From contig OX457037.1 in NCBI GenBank assembly GCA_949752735.1, forward strand, positions 41,201,496 to 41,265,495: a DNA stretch of 64,000 nucleotides, given 5' to 3'. This DNA is from Lumbricus terrestris. Its lineage: Eukaryota; Annelida; Clitellata; Crassiclitellata; Lumbricidae. The notes beneath the pieces are model-generated. The model worked only from the letters and a program-made list of their open reading frames with translations, did not search any database and was not told the DNA's origin. This document shows positions 8,432 to 64,000 of this stretch, piece after piece. The translations under genes and the position numbers were made by a program. Each line of letters opens with the position of its first letter. Position 1 is the stretch's first letter.

Positions 8432-9359
8432 TAGTGATGTAGCTTTTCCGGAAAAGTATTTTGCCGGAAACTTTCCGGAAACTTTCCGGAAACTTTCCGG
8501 AAACTTTCCGGAAACTTTCCGAAGAACCAGAAAAATACATTTAACTCAGAAAATATCAGAATTTCACTCTCAGAAATTTTTATTATTGTTTAAACTTCTT
8601 TTATTTACAGTACTTCTGTCATTGCAAGCAATGTTAACTTAAAAATAATCAATATGAGCAATAAACACTGTTCATTAGCATTTCAGACTACAGTAGCCTA
8701 AAGAAAATTAGTTGTAGCTTGCATGTCTGCAGTCGGCTGTGTTGCAGGAAACATGTTAAAAAAACTGATATAAACATGTAGCAATGCTGCATCAATTGCT
8801 GTTTCTGTCTTATATTTTCATAACTCACAAATATGAAGATGACTGAATGATAAAAAATATTTTCTCTAAATTTACAGCGAAGTTTAATTGCATTTAATTC
8901 CTAAATGTATTTTTGGGCCGTGTGAACAATCTGAACAATTATCACTAGCACAATGTATTCAATAAACTATCAGTTATAACCACCTAAGACTGCTTATAGT
9001 GATTTATGTATTTAGTAACATTATATTTGAAAGAAAATTCGGACTCCTTAGAATTGAGTACTATGTATTTAATAATATTTTATTGGTGGAAAAATACGTC
9101 GGAAAGTTTCCAGAAAAATATGAGACTATCCGGACAATTTTTCCACCTCACAACACTAACAGCTGATAGTGATTGATGTATTTAGTAACATTATATTGAA
9201 AGAAAATTTCGGACTCGTTAGAATTGAGTATGTATTTAATAATATTTTATTGGTGGAAAAATATGTCGGAAAGTTTCCGGAAAGATACGTCGGAAAGTTT
9301 CCGAAACTTTCCGGAAAGATATGAAACTTTCCGCGGAAAGTTTCCGCCTCACAACACTA
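8432..9359. mobile_element. hAT-like non-autonomous DNA transposon (928 bp)
   Basis: Ends TAGTGATGTAG and CACAACACTA are inverted relatives and are flanked by a perfect 8-bp duplication, GGCCAGAC (8424-8431 and 9360-9367), the size produced by hAT transposases. Clusters of the near-palindrome GGAAACTTTCC occur just inside both ends (five at 8467-8520, several at 9290-9350), resembling subterminal binding sites. The right end is internally duplicated (about 8991-9158 and 9160-9359). No transposase frame is present. Confidence 0.88.
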
Positions 9360-16098: not shown

Positions 16099-16251
16099 TA
16101 AAAAAATACTAGAATTATTATCCAGCCATCCGCACAACCATCCATCTATCCATGTAATATAATAAATCATTTAGCAGTTTATAAGCAGAATTCATAATTA
16201 TTTTTTATAACATTGAAGGGCTGTGCTGGTGATAAAGGTGACTAGAGTCAG

Positions 16252-17371
16252 GGCGCGGACATTCCCCCCAACAAAAACACTCCTGGACAAAAAAACCTGG
16301 ACAAAACCCACCCAGGGTAGGAAACAAAACCTGGAAGAACATATTGCGTGTAAGTGGTATTACTCTAAAACGGTGGTCCTAAGTACGCACTACGCAAGTT
16401 GGATTGATGAAAAGATTTCTCCCTAAATAGAAGCCGGATTGATACAAAATAACTTTCACTTAAGTGAAAGCTGGATTGATGAAAATATTCTTGTTTAAAT
16501 TGGAGCTGGATTGATGAAAGTGTTAAGATTGCTTAAATTGGAGCAGGATTGCTGAAAATATTTTTGCTTAAATTGGAGCTGGATTGATGAAAATAATTCT
16601 TATTTAAATAGAAGTTGGATGAAACGAATTTCTGTCCAAATGGAAGCTGGATTGATGACAAGGATTCATGCTGTCCGAAATTACACCAGCAGGTATTAGT
16701 GAGTGACTGAGGGACACTAACAAGCTATAAGTTCCCGAAAGCCAGGGACAGAGTGTTTACCCATATGACATTATGACACTAACTAGTTGACACCATAGAT
16801 GTAAAAAACGATGGAAACGGAATAAAAAACGGTAAAAAACGTCGTTTTTTTCGAAAAAATAAAAAACGACAAAAAAACGATAAAAAACGGAAACGGTAAA
16901 TAATTTGACTTTTTTGACCGCATTTTAACCTTGAAAACATTCATTAGGAACCTACTACACGCAGGCTATCTCTTAAATTATGATGTTAAACGTTGAAATA
17001 ATGACTTTAGTTAGCTGAATTCTTGAGCGTTGGCGGAAAACATAAGGAATATCAGAGAAAAATTAAAATTAAGGAAAATAATAACCGAAAGTAAGTGAAT
17101 AAATAAAGATAAAGAACAAATAAAAAACGATAAAAAACGATGGGAAAAATAAAAAACGAAAAAACGACGTTTTTTGAGAGAGAATAAAAAACGGAAAAAT
17201 ACGTTTTTTACATCTATGGTTGACACAGCATGGGGAACTGGATAATTAGTCCAAGTTTGAGCAAATAATACCTACATAAATAGGCTATGCGCAGCAAAGG
17301 GTGGAATTGTCTGGAGGGGAGGTTTGTCTGGGGGGGGGGGTTTGTCCAGGAGGGGAAATGTCCTACACTCC
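16252..17371. mobile_element. foldback-like element, copy C (1120 bp, carries nested hAT)
   Basis: The left end starts GGCGCGGACATTCCCCCC. The right end, read inverted, starts GGAGTGTAGGACATTTCCCC; both continue into repeated GGACAAA plus C-run blocks. Flanks TAGAGTCAG (16243-16251) and TAGAGCCAA (17372-17380) form a 9-bp target duplication with two transitions. The interior (16410-16660) is a tandem repeat of about 34 bp containing GGAGCTGGATTGATGAAAA. A 425-bp hAT element is nested at 16794-17218. No transposase frame was seen. The design matches foldback/MULE-like elements. Confidence 0.75.
16794..17218. mobile_element. hAT-like MITE nested in foldback element (425 bp)
   Basis: Perfect 17-bp inverted ends, CATAGATGTAAAAAACG, with an exact 8-bp target duplication, GTTGACAC (16786-16793 and 17219-17226). 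The interior is dominated by TAAAAAACGG-type repeats. The minus open frame at 17011-17226 is low-complexity and is not a transposase. Confidence 0.93.
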
Positions 17372-19740: not shown

Positions 19741-21639
19741 AAATGTACACTGTACAGACGGCAAGTTATCTTAATTAAATCTTAGGATCCTGTGAGGCAC
19801 ACTAACTATAGCTATATTATGTCGAAGGGTTGTGGTGGTTGGCACAGACTTTTCTAATAAGGTCATCATCACACACTGTGTGTGCATTAATTCAATGATG
19901 ATGTCATTTCTCTCTTGTGACCAGCAGGTGCTCGCCACACAGATGTCCAGTGACACATGAAGCATGAACACATGCAGCAGTTCTTGGTTCATAGGTCAGT
20001 GCTCAGCATTGCAGGAATCGGCCAATGATGATGCACGTAGGAATGCCTTCAGCGTGGCGTTGAAAATGCAAATCAAAACGTGAACTGTGACTGCAATCTG
20101 TGATGCAAATCCTTGCAAGCAGAGAACGAACGGAGAGCGTTAACGAACAAAACAGGTCTCTTATGGTCTTTACCTGTTTACCTGTACGCTGCCAACAAAA
20201 TAGGTGCGGAGCCACGCTTGTATACTGTAATCGACACGAATGGAAATGCACAGGTAAGGCATCCATGTACTACGACGGTTGGATCAGGTAATTTACGAGG
20301 AGTGGAGCGTTCGTTAATGGAAAAATCGTTAAGTCATGTCACCTGGAAAAGAAGAACAGACCGGAAATATCGGCTGCGCACGAAGGACCTGGAATGGACG
20401 ACGAGGAAGTCTGCTAATGAATGCCGCTTGAAACCTCCTCGAGATTAGTCGTCGTTATGCCAGACCTGCACCTGAAGACGAGTGACGACTAAAAATGATA
20501 ACAACCGACTGAATAGTAATTGCCTCGCATAGGTAAAAAATAACTGGTGGACTTATGTATATTCCTTAGCCTTGCGATATGCGTTTCATTGTGAGGAATG
20601 CTTAGGTTGTAATAGAAGCGATCACCCACCTTGGTTGCCAGCAGCCGCATGTGGTCTTGTATAATTAATAATTAACTATAATGAGATCAGCATCTCTAAC
20701 CAGGTATACATGCATGATAATTCATGCTGTGTTTAAATCGATATCCCTTTGGGCAAATCCAAATGGAACATGGTCTAATGCAATCTCTGCCATTATCCCG
20801 TCTGATTCAGTTAAGTATTTGTTTGTTAATCAAGGCCCAGTTCAGATTGAATTTAATCAGCAGTTACAACTGCATTTTACTCTGAATGAACAAGTTTCCT
20901 TGTGCAGGAAACAAAGTCTGCAGAGCAAAGCAAATTAGCAAATTGTCCAAGTGTCCAGAGAGGGCAAGTAATAATATCCCTGGAGGAAATAATTGTGGCT
21001 GTCAGATATGGGGACAGCTCAGGAGAACTGACAGGAAACGACAAGGAAGAGGATAAAAGTCATTAGGAGACAGATTACCAGACTCAAAGGTGATACATCT
21101 AATTGCAAAGAACATTGTCTACGCCAATAAACAACAAAGTGAACATCATCAGTGCTCTTGAACCACTATAACTTACAACCACAGAACAGTATGCTAATCA
21201 GGAAGAGAAATTACCAGACCTGTGCAAACGTAGGGCAAAGAACATTTTCTCAGCAGCGGACCAAATTAGATAAAGGAAAGGAGAAAATAACAAGGGAATA
21301 TTGGGACTGGAATTCCAAACTAACAAACTACAATATCCTAAATATTTAGATCAAATTCCAGCAAATGCATACACGACCCTATGTTAATTGAAACATAGTC
21401 AAAAGTGCTTCACGGTCACCAGGCACCAATAAGCCATGGATTTGTAAATATTAACCCTAATATAAAGGGGTTCATGGCTGAGCCCATTGTGTCATATCAC
21501 CTCAGGCACAAGTCACACTGAACAATGAACAAGGAGTTCCTTCTTTATACACAGCATCTCTTCTCTGCACAATGTTCAACAAAAGCACGAGCGCCAATCA
21601 CTCAGTGTATGTGTGTATATATGCCATTTGTATAAATGT
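19741..21639. other. no gene established; modest CpG rise at 20040-20480
   Basis: The region 20040-20480 has more CpG than its surroundings (ACGACGAGG, AGTCGTCG) and overlapping open frames on both strands, none with recognisable similarity. The rest is AT-rich. Confidence 0.3.
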
Positions 21640-22439: not shown

Positions 22440-22640
22440 TAAGTTATTTTCCCATTGTAATTCTTGCCTAAATGGAAGATAGATTAGTGAAAATAATTCT
22501 TTATTAAAAGAAGTTGGATTGATAAAAATAATCCTTGCTAAAAAGAATTTAGAACAATAAAAATAATTCCTGCTCAAATGAAAGTTGGAATTATGAAAAT
22601 AATTCCTGCTCAAATAGAAGCCAGATTGATGAAAACAAAA
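22440..22640. repeat. remnant of the foldback-type internal repeat
   Basis: Five degenerate units of roughly 36 bp carry GAAGTTGGATTGATAAAAAT and AATAATTCCTGCTCAAAT. They match the interior of the foldback-like elements at 16410-16660 and 49145-49700. Clear inverted ends were not found. Confidence 0.65.
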
Positions 22641-29198: not shown

Positions 29199-29694
29199 CA
29201 GTGGCTCCCAACCCGTGGCCCCAGTGGCGTAACTAGAAACTCGGGGGCCCCTAGACAAAATGTGAATATTGAAATGTATTATCACTTACAGTGGCATAAC
29301 TATAGGAACTCGGGGGCCCCTCTGGGGCCTCTACACTCGGGGGCCCCTAGACTTTGTCTACTCAGTCTACCCTATTGTTACGCCACTGCGTGGCCCGCCA
29401 GGCCTCCAAAAATGGCCCTCATCTCTCAAAGAATTAACAAAAACATAAAAAAAATTGACAATTTGGACAGGATATAGCATATAATTATTTTCTAATACAA
29501 GTTATTTTATTTTGACGTCTATAAATAACATAAAGCATTATAATTTGATTCAATTATAACCATTTTATAGGCTTTTAATTAATTATATTCTTGCCTTGTG
29601 GCCCCCTAATATCCTTCAATTAAGAAAAAGTGGCCCTCGTGTCCTTCAACTTAGAAAAGGTGGCCTGAAAGTAAAAAAAGGTTGGGAAGCACAG
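29199..29694. mobile_element. older hAT-like element (host of a nested one)
   Basis: Ends CAGTGGCTCCCAACC and GGTTGGGAAGCACAG are inverted relatives, of the CAGTGGTTCCCAACC type common in hAT elements. Flanks CTAAAGAA and CTATAGAT agree at 6 of 8 positions. The interior repeats GTGGCCC/GTGGCCCTC. The element is split by the 167-bp element at 29222. Confidence 0.7.
29222..29388. mobile_element. hAT-like MITE nested in 29199 element (167 bp)
   Basis: Ends CAGTGGCGTAACTAG and GTTACGCCACTG with an exact 8-bp duplication, CGTGGCCC (29214-29221 and 29389-29396). A further CAGTGGCATAACTATAGG start at 29295 and repeated CTCGGGGGCCCCT blocks inside suggest an internal duplication or second insertion of the same family. 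Confidence 0.9.
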
Positions 29695-48169: not shown

Positions 48170-48530
48170 TCAATCAATCAGAATTTATATAACGAACTTT
48201 CAAGATAGCCACTCAGAAAGCGCTCCCGACCAAGATACAAGTGAAAAAGTCATCAGCAGTCTGTGAAATTGAGAACAGTTTGAGGTGTCGCATAGTGAAG
48301 GGAAGCCCAATCCATATTGTTGGACCAACTACAGAGTAGGAATGGTTCTGAGTGAGTGAAAGGAACCATTAATTAAGTCACCATGGACAGCAGAGCACAA
48401 ACAGAAAGACCAGTATTATGCTACATTCCATCAACTGCATTGCTTTTGAATATTCATTCTAAGAATTTACATAGCACCCTATCAAGAAATTCTATACAGG
48501 GGCACTCCCAGCCCAGCCATTGCAAAAGAA
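48170..48530 (-). repeat. two SINE/L2 tail fragments
   Basis: ATTTATATAACGAACTTTCA with CTCAGAAAGCGCTCCCGAC (48187-48232), and ACATAGCACCCTATCAAGAA with GGCACTCCCAGCCCAGCC (48470-48520), are diverged inverted versions of the tail shared by SINE 1 and the L2-like LINE. Confidence 0.6.
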
Positions 48531-48609
48531 AAAAGACTTTTAGATTTAAATGAAACAAAGTTTGACTGGTCAGATGAAATAAATGCAGCTTTGAACGGAG
48601 GTCATTCCA

Positions 48610-48987
48610 GGATACTTGTTTTTTTATCCGACCACCAAGGACTAACATTGCAGCATTGTTATCTTCAATAAATCCAACTTCTAGTTTGTCGAGAATCCTT
48701 TTAATCGATCCAGCTTCTGTTTAGGCAAGAATTTGTTCGATAAATCCCGCTTCTATTTCGTCAGCAAATATTTTTCATCAATTTTTCATTGAAAATTATT
48801 GTTCATAAGTCCAGCTTCAATTTCAGCATGATGACTGCATTAACCCTAAAACTGACTATAACCGACCCTCAAGACGCCTAACCTGAGCCCTAACCGACCC
48901 TCACGCGATAAAACCCGCTTCTATTTCGCCAGGAATTATTTTTCATCGAATTTATAAAGTTTGGTGGTCGGATAAAAAACAAGAACC
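48610..48987. mobile_element. TIR element A, relative of the foldback-like family (378 bp)
   Basis: Left end GGATACTTGTTTTTTTATCC then GACCACCAA. The right end inverted reads GGTTCTTGTTTTTTATCCGA then CCACCAA. Both sides are flanked by CATTCCA (48603-48609, 48988-48994), extendable to 9 bp with one mismatch. The interior holds the same ATCCAGCTTCTATTT...TTTTTCATCAAT repeat as element B. Confidence 0.75.
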
Positions 48988-49014
48988 CATTCCAGATAAC
49001 ATAATCCGCTGTGG

Positions 49015-49839
49015 GGATGGCGGACATTTCCCCCCCCTGGACATTTCCCCCCCGGACATTTCCCCCCCGGACATTTCCCCCCCTGGACGTTTCCCCCCCC
49101 GATTTCGACTAGGACATTTCCCCCCCCCGGACATTTTCCCCCCCCTTAAGTCAATCCAGCTTCTATTTCAGATCTATAAATACCTTCATCCAGCTTCTAT
49201 TTAACTTGCATTTTTTCATCAATAAAGCGTCTATTTAAGATCAACAAATACTTTCATCCAGCTTCTATTTAACCTGTATTTTTCATCAATCCAGCTTCTA
49301 TTTCAGATCTAAAAATACCTTCATCCAGCTTCTATTTAACTTGCATTTTTTCATCAATCCAGCTTCTATTTCAGATCTAAAAATACCTTCATCCAGCTTC
49401 TATTTAACTTGCATTTTTTCATCAATAAAGCGTCTAATTAAGATCAAAAAATACCTTCATCCAGCTTCTATTTAACTTGCATTTTTTCATCAATCCAGCT
49501 TCTATTTCAGATCTAAAAATACCTTCATCCAGCTTCTATTTAACTTGCATTTTTTCATCAATCCAGCTTCTATTTCAGATCTAAAAATATCTTCATCCAG
49601 CTTCTATTTAACTTGCATTTTTTCATCAATCCAGCTTCTATTTCACATGTAAAAGGTCTTCATCCAGCTTCCATTTCTCAAGCGCTTTTTCATATGTTGA
49701 AGACCATAAAAACAATGGTTTCCGCATACGGGGGGGGGGAAATGTCCTAGGGTAGGGGGGGAAACGTCCGGGGGGGGGAATGTCCGGGGGGGAATTGTCC
49801 GGGGGGGGAAATGTCCAGGGGGGGAAATGTCCGTTTACC
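49015..49839. mobile_element. foldback-like TIR element B (825 bp)
   Basis: An exact 9-bp target duplication, CCGCTGTGG, lies at 49006-49014 and 49840-49848. Ends of about 120 bp are inverted copies made of five to seven GGACATTTCCCCCC blocks (GGATGGCGGACATTTCCC at left, GGTAAACGGACATTTCCC at right, inverted). The centre (49145-49700) is about eight copies of a 68-bp unit with CATCCAGCTTCTATTTAACT and TTTTTCATCAATCCAGCTTC. No transposase frame was found. Long inverted ends of short tandem blocks plus a 9-bp duplication are hallmarks of foldback/MULE-like elements. Confidence 0.88.
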
Positions 49840-49848
49840 CCGCTGTGG

Positions 49849-52030: not shown

Positions 52031-52355
52031 GTGCTCCATCCTACTTGTGGTCTGCGAGTTCTCTGTCGTCCAGTCTCTGACATTGAAGCGTGTCGGGCGC
52101 GAAGGGACAACTGCTTGTTCCACGGGCTCGCTTAGCTACCAGACAGCGCCGAGCCTGAAGTCTCGGTTGTGGGGCCGTCAATCTGGAATGACCTCCCCCC
52201 TAACCTCCATCCCCTTCACCTGACCAGTCAATCCTTATTCCTTAAGTCCCTTAAATCTTTTTTCTTTTGCCGTGGCTGGGCTGGGAGCGCCTCTGAGTAG
52301 TTTCTTGAAGGGGCGCTATATAAATGCTAATAATGAATGAATGAATGAATGAACA
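52031..52355 (+). pseudogene. L2-like LINE 3' end sharing its tail with SINE 1
   Basis: The frame PEVSVVGPSIWNDLPPNLHP, LHLTSQSLFLKSLKSFFFC, RGWAGSASE, stop has the G P .. WN.LP .... S...FK..LK signature of L2/CR1-type reverse transcriptase C-termini. The stop lies inside GGAGCGCCTCTGAGTAG. The tail TTGAAGGGGCGCTATATAAA TGCTAATAATGAATGAATG is the SINE 1 3' end. A stop just upstream (in the SLAYQ region) shows the copy is dead. Confidence 0.85.
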
Positions 52356-57431: not shown

Positions 57432-58254
57432 CAGGGGTTCTCAAACTTTATTTTTATTGTACCCCAAAATAATAAAATCGAATGATGGCGTACCCCGGGT
57501 CACAGAAAAGTCAGATCAGAAACAAAATACCATTGCAATTTGCGAAGTTCCTCTTGCAGTGACAACTGAAAGTCCACTTAATTATTGATGACATCGTTTA
57601 TTAGAGTCTATAGCCTGTAGGGAGCAAAAAAAATTGAATCATATAATTTTATCAACAAATTTAAAGGGGAAAATTGGTCTACAACCTCTGTATTATAAGA
57701 AATAGCCAACCTATTAGTGCTGTGGGGCTTGTTCAGACTAGCACAGATTTTAAAAAATATGGTTTAACATTTGTCAATTTCAAACGCAAATTACCTCATG
57801 TTTGTTTTTGATAGCAAGCATAGTTTAAAAACCAGTTTCAACCAGATATGACGTGCTGGAGCGAATCGCAAAATTGAAAGCTAGACCAGGAAATTATTCC
57901 TTATGCCAATTCAGCTATCCGTTATTTCATTTCTATAATATATAGGCCTATAGGCTAAGAATTTCTGGCTTTGGTACTTTCAACCATTTATACAGTATCT
58001 GTTTCAACATTTTGGTGGTAGGCCTCAAAACATAAATAGCCTATGTTGCATGCATTGTATAATAAATTATGTGAGTATAATTATATGATGTGAAAGAAAT
58101 AAATGACGATGCTGTTATATGTTGCTAATCAAAGAAAGATGGACACAAACTCCATAAACTCAAAATAATTTATATTTCTGGAATTTTTCGCGTACCCATA
58201 ACCTGCGCTTGGCGTACCCCCAGGGGTACGCGTACCACAGTTTGAGAACCCCTG
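57432..58254. mobile_element. hAT-like element in KDM4 intron (823 bp)
   Basis: Ends CAGGGGTTCTCAAACTTT and CAGTTTGAGAACCCCTG, flanked by an exact 8-bp duplication, ATCTATGA (57424-57431 and 58255-58262). Subterminal GTACCCC/GCGTACCCC motifs occur near both ends. If the gene continues leftwards, it sits in the intron, starting about 95 bp downstream of the giant exon's donor. No transposase frame. Confidence 0.95.
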
Positions 58255-58354
58255 ATCTATGATCAACCTACTTTGCAATAATAAGACCTTGGCAAGTGCT
58301 TCTGAGTAGCCTACCTTCTGAGTAGCCTACCTTAGTCAAAACAAGTTTCCTTAC

Positions 58355-64000
<5,646 letters not shown>

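Follow-up and report, generated by a model that had tools for sequence, protein, structure and literature searches.

The TU foldbacks of sea urchin are modular in structure, with 15-bp repeats in their outer domain and 8-bp target duplications. By this description they resemble the element considered here, E1, in the 15-bp repeat outer domain, the duplications being of 8 bp versus 9 bp in E1. In root-knot nematodes (Meloidogyne), the Mutator/foldback family Tm1 presents 9-bp duplications and two unlike 7-bp termini with an adjoining GGA, its arms contain varying numbers of a unit of about 14 bp, and its transposase combines FLYWCH and MULE domains (PMC3169594). Muta1 and Muta5 of Aedes aegypti feature 8-9-bp duplications and a terminal motif with nine 12- or 15-bp subterminal repeats; over 200-300 non-autonomous derivatives with varied centres have been reported, and Muta1 was termed a type 2 foldback (PMC5225508). 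The name Phantom has been proposed for the group of such animal MULEs, which show 8-10-bp duplications and, in some members, FLYWCH (PMC6446971). Tetris of Drosophila virilis is a foldback with 8-10-bp duplications, for which no autonomous copy was found there (PMC4079207).

E1 was identified in a stretch of 64,000 nucleotides from Lumbricus terrestris, hereafter the window. It shares with Tm1 the 9-bp duplications, the two 7-bp termini lying outside the inverted repeat, the adjoining GGA and the arms of short units; however, the arm unit and the terminal sequences are different, Tm1 includes a motif D and differs in its centres, and the 34-bp core unit of E1 finds no mention for Tm1 in the accessible text of that report (PMC3169594). 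In particular, the E1 unit GGACATTTCCCCCC, compared by eye with motif C of Tm1 (CGATTCAGTATCCGC), indicates that E1 is not Tm1 itself. The resemblance to Muta1 and Muta5 concerns the duplications, the terminal motif with short subterminal repeats and the existence of non-autonomous derivatives but, different from E1, the ends of Muta1 consist of a 10-bp imperfect palindromic motif, and full Muta elements measure 3.2-3.5 kb, with no inner arrays mentioned in the accessible text (PMC5225508). Phantom MULEs are likened to E1 by their features (PMC6446971), whereas Tetris departs from E1 in its arms of up to 1,735 bp and in having no transposase assigned (PMC4079207). Literature searches, none of them by sequence, returned no published report of E1. 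With a probability of roughly 0.9, we consider E1 a non-autonomous Mutator-like (MULE) foldback-type DNA transposon, closest in layout to Tm1 and Muta of the Phantom group.

E1 and neighbouring elements in the window

The positions of E1, of its parts and of the related elements are collected in Table 1. The first-pass annotation of the window had described an exact 9-bp duplication around E1, inverted ends of about 120 bp made of repeated blocks and a centre of about eight 68-bp repeats, and all three hold. In the window, searched on both strands, CCGCTGTGG is found only at the two sites flanking E1, and an exact 9-mer common to the 20-bp flanks at the E1 spacing occurred in 45 of 20,000 random placements. 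The two arms, 84% identical over 130 bp, correspond position by position, including the fifth unit from either end and the spacer that follows it. With up to 2 mismatches, GGACATTTCCCCCC has 15 matches in the window (0.18 expected), 13 of which fall in E1 and 2 in the element E2. Compared with 20 shuffled sequences, the folding of the E1 strand is better by 12.5 sd (z -12.5). The centre amounts to 7.8 copies of 68 bp, which resolve into 34-bp units paired alternately, and no coding content was found. E1 thus presents both inverted terminal repeats, a feature of the MULE superfamily, and inverted arms of short tandem repeats, a feature of the foldback class. The asymmetric 7-bp termini, and a centre that may originate from another family, are points absent from the first-pass annotation.

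Table 1. Positions of E1, its parts and related elements (window coordinates, except for the last line)
Feature	Position	Strand	Remarks
E1, whole element, 825 bp, non-autonomous foldback-type	49015..49839	+	ends backed by genomic copies
Target duplication, left copy, 9 bp, CCGCTGTGG	49006..49014	+	exact
E1 left 7-bp terminus, GGATGGC	49015..49021	+	terminus types in 40 copies
E1 left arm, seven GGACATTTCCCCCC units	49022..49145	+	unit 5 is GGACGTTT, then spacer ending in CTA
E1 centre, tandem 34-bp units in alternating 68-bp pairs, head ATCCAGCTTCTATTT	49151..49676	+	unit common to inner arms of 11.9-kb MULE element
E1 right arm, six units in left-arm order	49730..49832	-	unit 5 again GGACGTTT
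E1 right 7-bp terminus, GGTAAAC, read inward	49833..49839	-	terminus types in 40 copies
Target duplication, right copy, 9 bp, CCGCTGTGG	49840..49848	+	exact
E2, diverged cousin of E1 with core unit	16251..17370	-	termini GAGTGTA / GGGCGC, GGACAAA-type arms
Separate 425-bp element inserted in E2, AAAAAACG-rich	16794..17218	.	8-bp repeat GTTGACAC, ends CATAGATGTAAAAAACG
E3, other inverted end CTTGTTTTTTATCCGACCACCAA, diverged core units	48611..48987	+	8-bp duplication CATTCCAG
E4, core units only	22458..22635	-	no ends recognised
11.9-kb FLYWCH-MULE element (L253, L257, L258)	G000:C8:45154775-45166635, approximately		in stretch C8:45154000-45167000

A repetition of E1 had also been claimed at 16252-17371. 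This proved to be the diverged cousin E2 and no second copy, with degenerate arms, a target match at 8 of 9 positions (CTAGAGtCA / CTAGAGcCA, equalled or exceeded in 435 of 20,000 random placements) and a further element inserted in it. E3 lies 18 bp away from the target duplication of E1, and its own duplication can be read as 8 bp or as 9 bp with one mismatch. It is inserted into one copy of a repeat pair (48452-48610 and 52181-52338) with 77% identity; CATTCCAG occurs once in the paralogue at 52181-52338, and the match continues for two bases past it before the similarity ends, so that the left side only of the E3 insertion is supported. For E2, E3 and E4, a model built from the other loci with the examined one held out recovered the core unit with scores from 5.8 to 18.8 bits. 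Scores of 5.9 to 8.0 bits are reached in a few other places of the window, and therefore the weakest held-out core units are no better than those, while the reversed window gave none.

Other features of the window were recorded. An 11-bp near-palindromic unit (CCGGAAACTTT) forms two arrays within 8464-9318, partly mutually inverted and about 800 bp apart, which are possibly a further foldback-like structure. Inverted-repeat elements occur at 29222-29388 and 57432-58254, with ends CAGTGGCGTAAC and CAGGGGTTCTCAAAC and 8-bp repeats CGTGGCCC and ATCTATGA; we take their ends to be hAT-like. An interspersed repeat family of about 110-230 bp has five copies with 73-90% identity, at 21629, 23716, 44234, 46050 and 51551. 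The longest open frame (58271-60961, 897 aa) has four relatives, three with 67-73% identity and one with 26%, and no Pfam match; ten further frames gave only matches below the cut-off, and neither a tRNA nor an Rfam family at gathering score was found in the window.

Copies of E1 in the genome

The genome (1,056,305,194 bases in 331 contigs) was searched with E1 as the query, and the best 40 of 4,821 candidates, which include the window copy and are not a random sample, were scored. Duplications were sought in 30 of these loci with no assumption about the terminus sequence other than a 7-bp spacer; 25 exact duplications were obtained, all of 9 bp, together with one carrying a single mismatch, and four loci were without. 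A second scan with the learned termini, in which 2 substitutions were allowed, gave 45 terminus pairs. Five were set aside, being either pairings across neighbouring elements or the ends of other elements; exact 9-bp repeats were seen in two of the five, in one case within a simple repeat. One of the set-aside pairs is a separate element at L189 (GAATGTA and GGGGCGC) with an exact 9-bp duplication, the end type of E2 and a core inverted relative to its ends.

The terminus pair was present in all 40 scored copies, with a copy at each scored locus, and in every one of them the two different 7-bp termini lie outside the inverted repeat, as in Tm1. In 32 of the 40 the duplication is exact, 9 bp long and in register with that of E1, within the 8-11 bp typical of the MULE superfamily. 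E1 is present as many dispersed copies with fixed ends, which mostly have a 9-bp duplication of their own. The first-pass annotation had stated that copies lacking 9-bp duplications, or with ends other than those given, would count against its reading, and the reading withstood this check in the figures above. Among the remaining eight copies, L207 shows one mismatch, L215 has 8 bp and L185 a repeat displaced by 4 bp, and five (L187, L197, L211, L218 and L219) have no duplication, which could be an outcome of recombination between copies. Three of the exact cases (L208, L217 and L221) are located in short-period repeats, so that the length of their duplication is less certain. The exact duplications tend to begin with G (16 of 32) and to end with C (18 of 32).

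Two subfamilies can be recognized by their ends. The pair GRATGGC and GGTAAAC occurs in 28 copies and the pair G[AG][AG]TGTA and GGGGAAC in 11, and one mixed copy combines ends of both; counted singly, GRATGGC is found in 29 of the 40 copies and G[AG][AG]TGTA in 11, opposite GGTAAAC or GGGGAAC. The two unlike termini hold their orientation relative to the centre across the 40 copies. The order of the arm units, judged by eye, is nearly constant as well, with base changes in a few units and one or two units fewer in L193, L197 and L198. The 18 copies shorter than 860 bp show a mean pairwise difference of 5%. In the most similar pair, L190 and L191, the difference is 0.12%; these two copies lie 107 kb apart on one chromosome with unlike duplications, and their near-identity at differently duplicated sites indicates recent movement. 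Contig C16 holds 10 of the 40 copies (p 5e-6), the 40 being the best-scoring ones and not a random sample.

The same copies bear on whether E1 is a transposon at all. A dispersed satellite or a segmental duplication would be consistent with a centre that is a tandem array, the unit number of which ranges from 11 to 49 across the 40 copies. However, the fixed ends and the different 9-bp duplications from site to site leave hardly any room for such a reading, and the dispersed satellite was rejected on the fixed ends. Helentrons and pearl elements with central tandem repeats are not known to produce a target duplication, and a Helitron/Helentron with central repeats was rejected in view of the 9-bp duplications in 32 of 40 copies. 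Formation of G-quadruplexes by the G runs, also proposed at first pass, received little support. With loops up to 7, the canonical motif is confined to a single strand in E1, and none of the 40 copies has it on both; related families have shorter G runs or none, and a G-quadruplex function was rejected.

Scans of sequence collections with a two-unit arm pattern gave no match in viral contigs and none in genome contigs. A single 14- or 15-base pattern gave one match per contig, in 61 and at least 120 contigs, which we regard as chance.

Transposase-bearing relatives and the E1 centre

Matches to the MULE domain PF10551 number 143 in the genome, and 34 of them were examined: 30 loci with 1.5-kb flanks, four of them read also as 6-kb stretches and one of these extended further, and four additional 4-kb stretches. 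At L255, 3,452 bp are enclosed by exact 9-bp duplications (GTCTTCTAC), with the termini GAGTCTA and GGGAGCA, arms of GGACAAAACCCCC units and a frame of 260 aa matching the MULE domain at E 1.7e-14; no FLYWCH match was seen in this 260-aa frame. L223 has the same termini and arms and is 91% identical to L255 over 1,910 bp, with proteins about 83% identical over the part compared. Its MULE match (E 2e-14) runs through a stop, and in our reading its flanks are duplication-like at only 7 of 9 positions. A MULE transposase domain, absent from E1 itself, is encoded by elements whose arms and one terminus are related to those of E1. GAGTCTA differs by one base from GAGTGTA of the E1 family. Otherwise the termini are unlike (GAGTGTA or GGATGGC versus GAGTCTA, and GGGGAAC or GGTAAAC versus GGGAGCA), the arm units also differ from those of E1, and neither L255 nor L223 has core units between its arms. 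The first-pass annotation had called for an autonomous copy of Mutator type, and the search for a relative with such a transposase succeeded: L255 and L223 combine related arms, 7-bp termini and a MULE frame, but a transposase-bearing copy with GGACATTT arms was not among the 34 of 143 matches examined, most of them with 1.5-kb flanks. At two further MULE loci, L259 and L260, core units are present and no 9-bp ends were found.

We assign E1 to the non-autonomous MULEs because elements with GGACA..CCCCC arms and GAGTCTA enclose a MULE frame and because its layout is that of Tm1. The kind of element proposed at first pass is in this way supported, by the 32 of 40 exact 9-bp duplications and by the MULE frames in related elements. 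Since E1 is without any gene, we infer its transposase from these relatives, and the enzyme that moves it is very probably of the Mutator family. A foldback moved by a transposase of another kind, such as the P/Galileo type, with a merely coincidental likeness to MULEs, appears very improbable. Foldback architecture does exist outside MULEs, as in Galileo, and E1 itself is geneless, but GGACA-armed elements with the same terminal layout enclose MULE frames and the duplications are of 9 bp in 32 of 40 copies. It is possible to hypothesize that the MULE transposase produced by another copy would recognise the termini and the repeated arm units of E1 and would move it in trans, joining it to staggered 9-bp cuts in the target.

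The 34-bp unit of the E1 centre occurs also in a second lineage. A FLYWCH-MULE element measures 11,860 bp between exact 9-bp duplications (ATCGCTCAC), with the termini GGTTCCA and GGTGTCA and outer arms of nine 14-15-bp CGACAACTSGTCTA(C) units each. In its inner arms there are about 100 repeats of the E1 core unit on one side and 131 inverted ones on the other (up to 3 mismatches; with one stray unit that lies in the second arm, the first orientation reaches 101). Its frame of 510 aa matches FLYWCH (1.4e-6) and MULE (1e-15), so that a transposase with both domains, a Phantom feature, is present in an element sharing the E1 core. A protein search in which 7,999 candidates were scored gave 44 relatives, 30 with both domains; the named ones among these 30 are from a caddisfly, a rotifer, a prawn and a mite. 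Among the matches listed, one frame of the lineage of the 11.9-kb transposase is full-length and uninterrupted. Small derivatives of 601 and 612 bp have the outer arm unit of the 11.9-kb element, exact 9-bp duplications and core arrays. With its roughly 100 and 131 units of 34 bp, the 11.9-kb element was the most unusual object encountered in this study.

The E1 core shares 82% identity with that of the 612-bp derivative, right boundary included, 74-76% with the arms of the 11.9-kb element and 69-73% with E2-E4. The 34-bp centre of E1 shares homology with the inner arm arrays of the 11.9-kb element as well as with the centre of its small derivatives. E1 has the look of a chimera between two MULE lineages, or of a relative with changed arms. 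We lean somewhat towards a chimera in which a core of the 11.9-kb type would have come between GGACA-type arms and would now be a passenger, the arms deciding mobility. A different account, less probable though to be taken seriously, requires no chimera: E1 and the 11.9-kb family would descend from one ancestor already provided with arm units and core alike, the outer 15-bp unit having diverged and been homogenised into GGACATTTCCCCCC in one line. Consistent with this are GACA in both arm units, the GGACAATT variants in both families, the common layout and E2, which joins GGACAAA arms to a more distant form of the core. Against it, the transposase of the 11.9-kb element shares no more than 33-39% identity with the L255 type (L255 and L223, with GGACA..CCCCC arms), whereas the cores are 74-82% identical, and L255 and L223 are without core units between their arms. 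Extending the chimera reading, we suggest tentatively, at slightly less than even chances, that distinct MULE lineages trade parts, GGACA-type arms, 15-bp CGACAACTSGTCTAC arms and the 34-bp inner-arm satellite combining freely, so that the inner array (100 units or more per arm in the 11.9-kb element) would represent a shared cassette.

Meaning for foldback MULEs

E1 is a well-supported addition to the known foldback-MULE type, with an unusual centre that is either borrowed or shared. It extends the foldback MULE of Tm1/Muta style, with asymmetric 7-bp termini, to another host, in a family with near-identical copies located at different sites and with relatives that encode a transposase domain. 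A core common to families with unlike arms and transposases allows the recognised part of a foldback end to be sought directly, and its sharing also bears on the spread of satellite-like arrays inside transposons. If the trading of parts is true, the arms and not the centre would define the mobilising transposase, and this genome would provide a natural series for mapping arm recognition.
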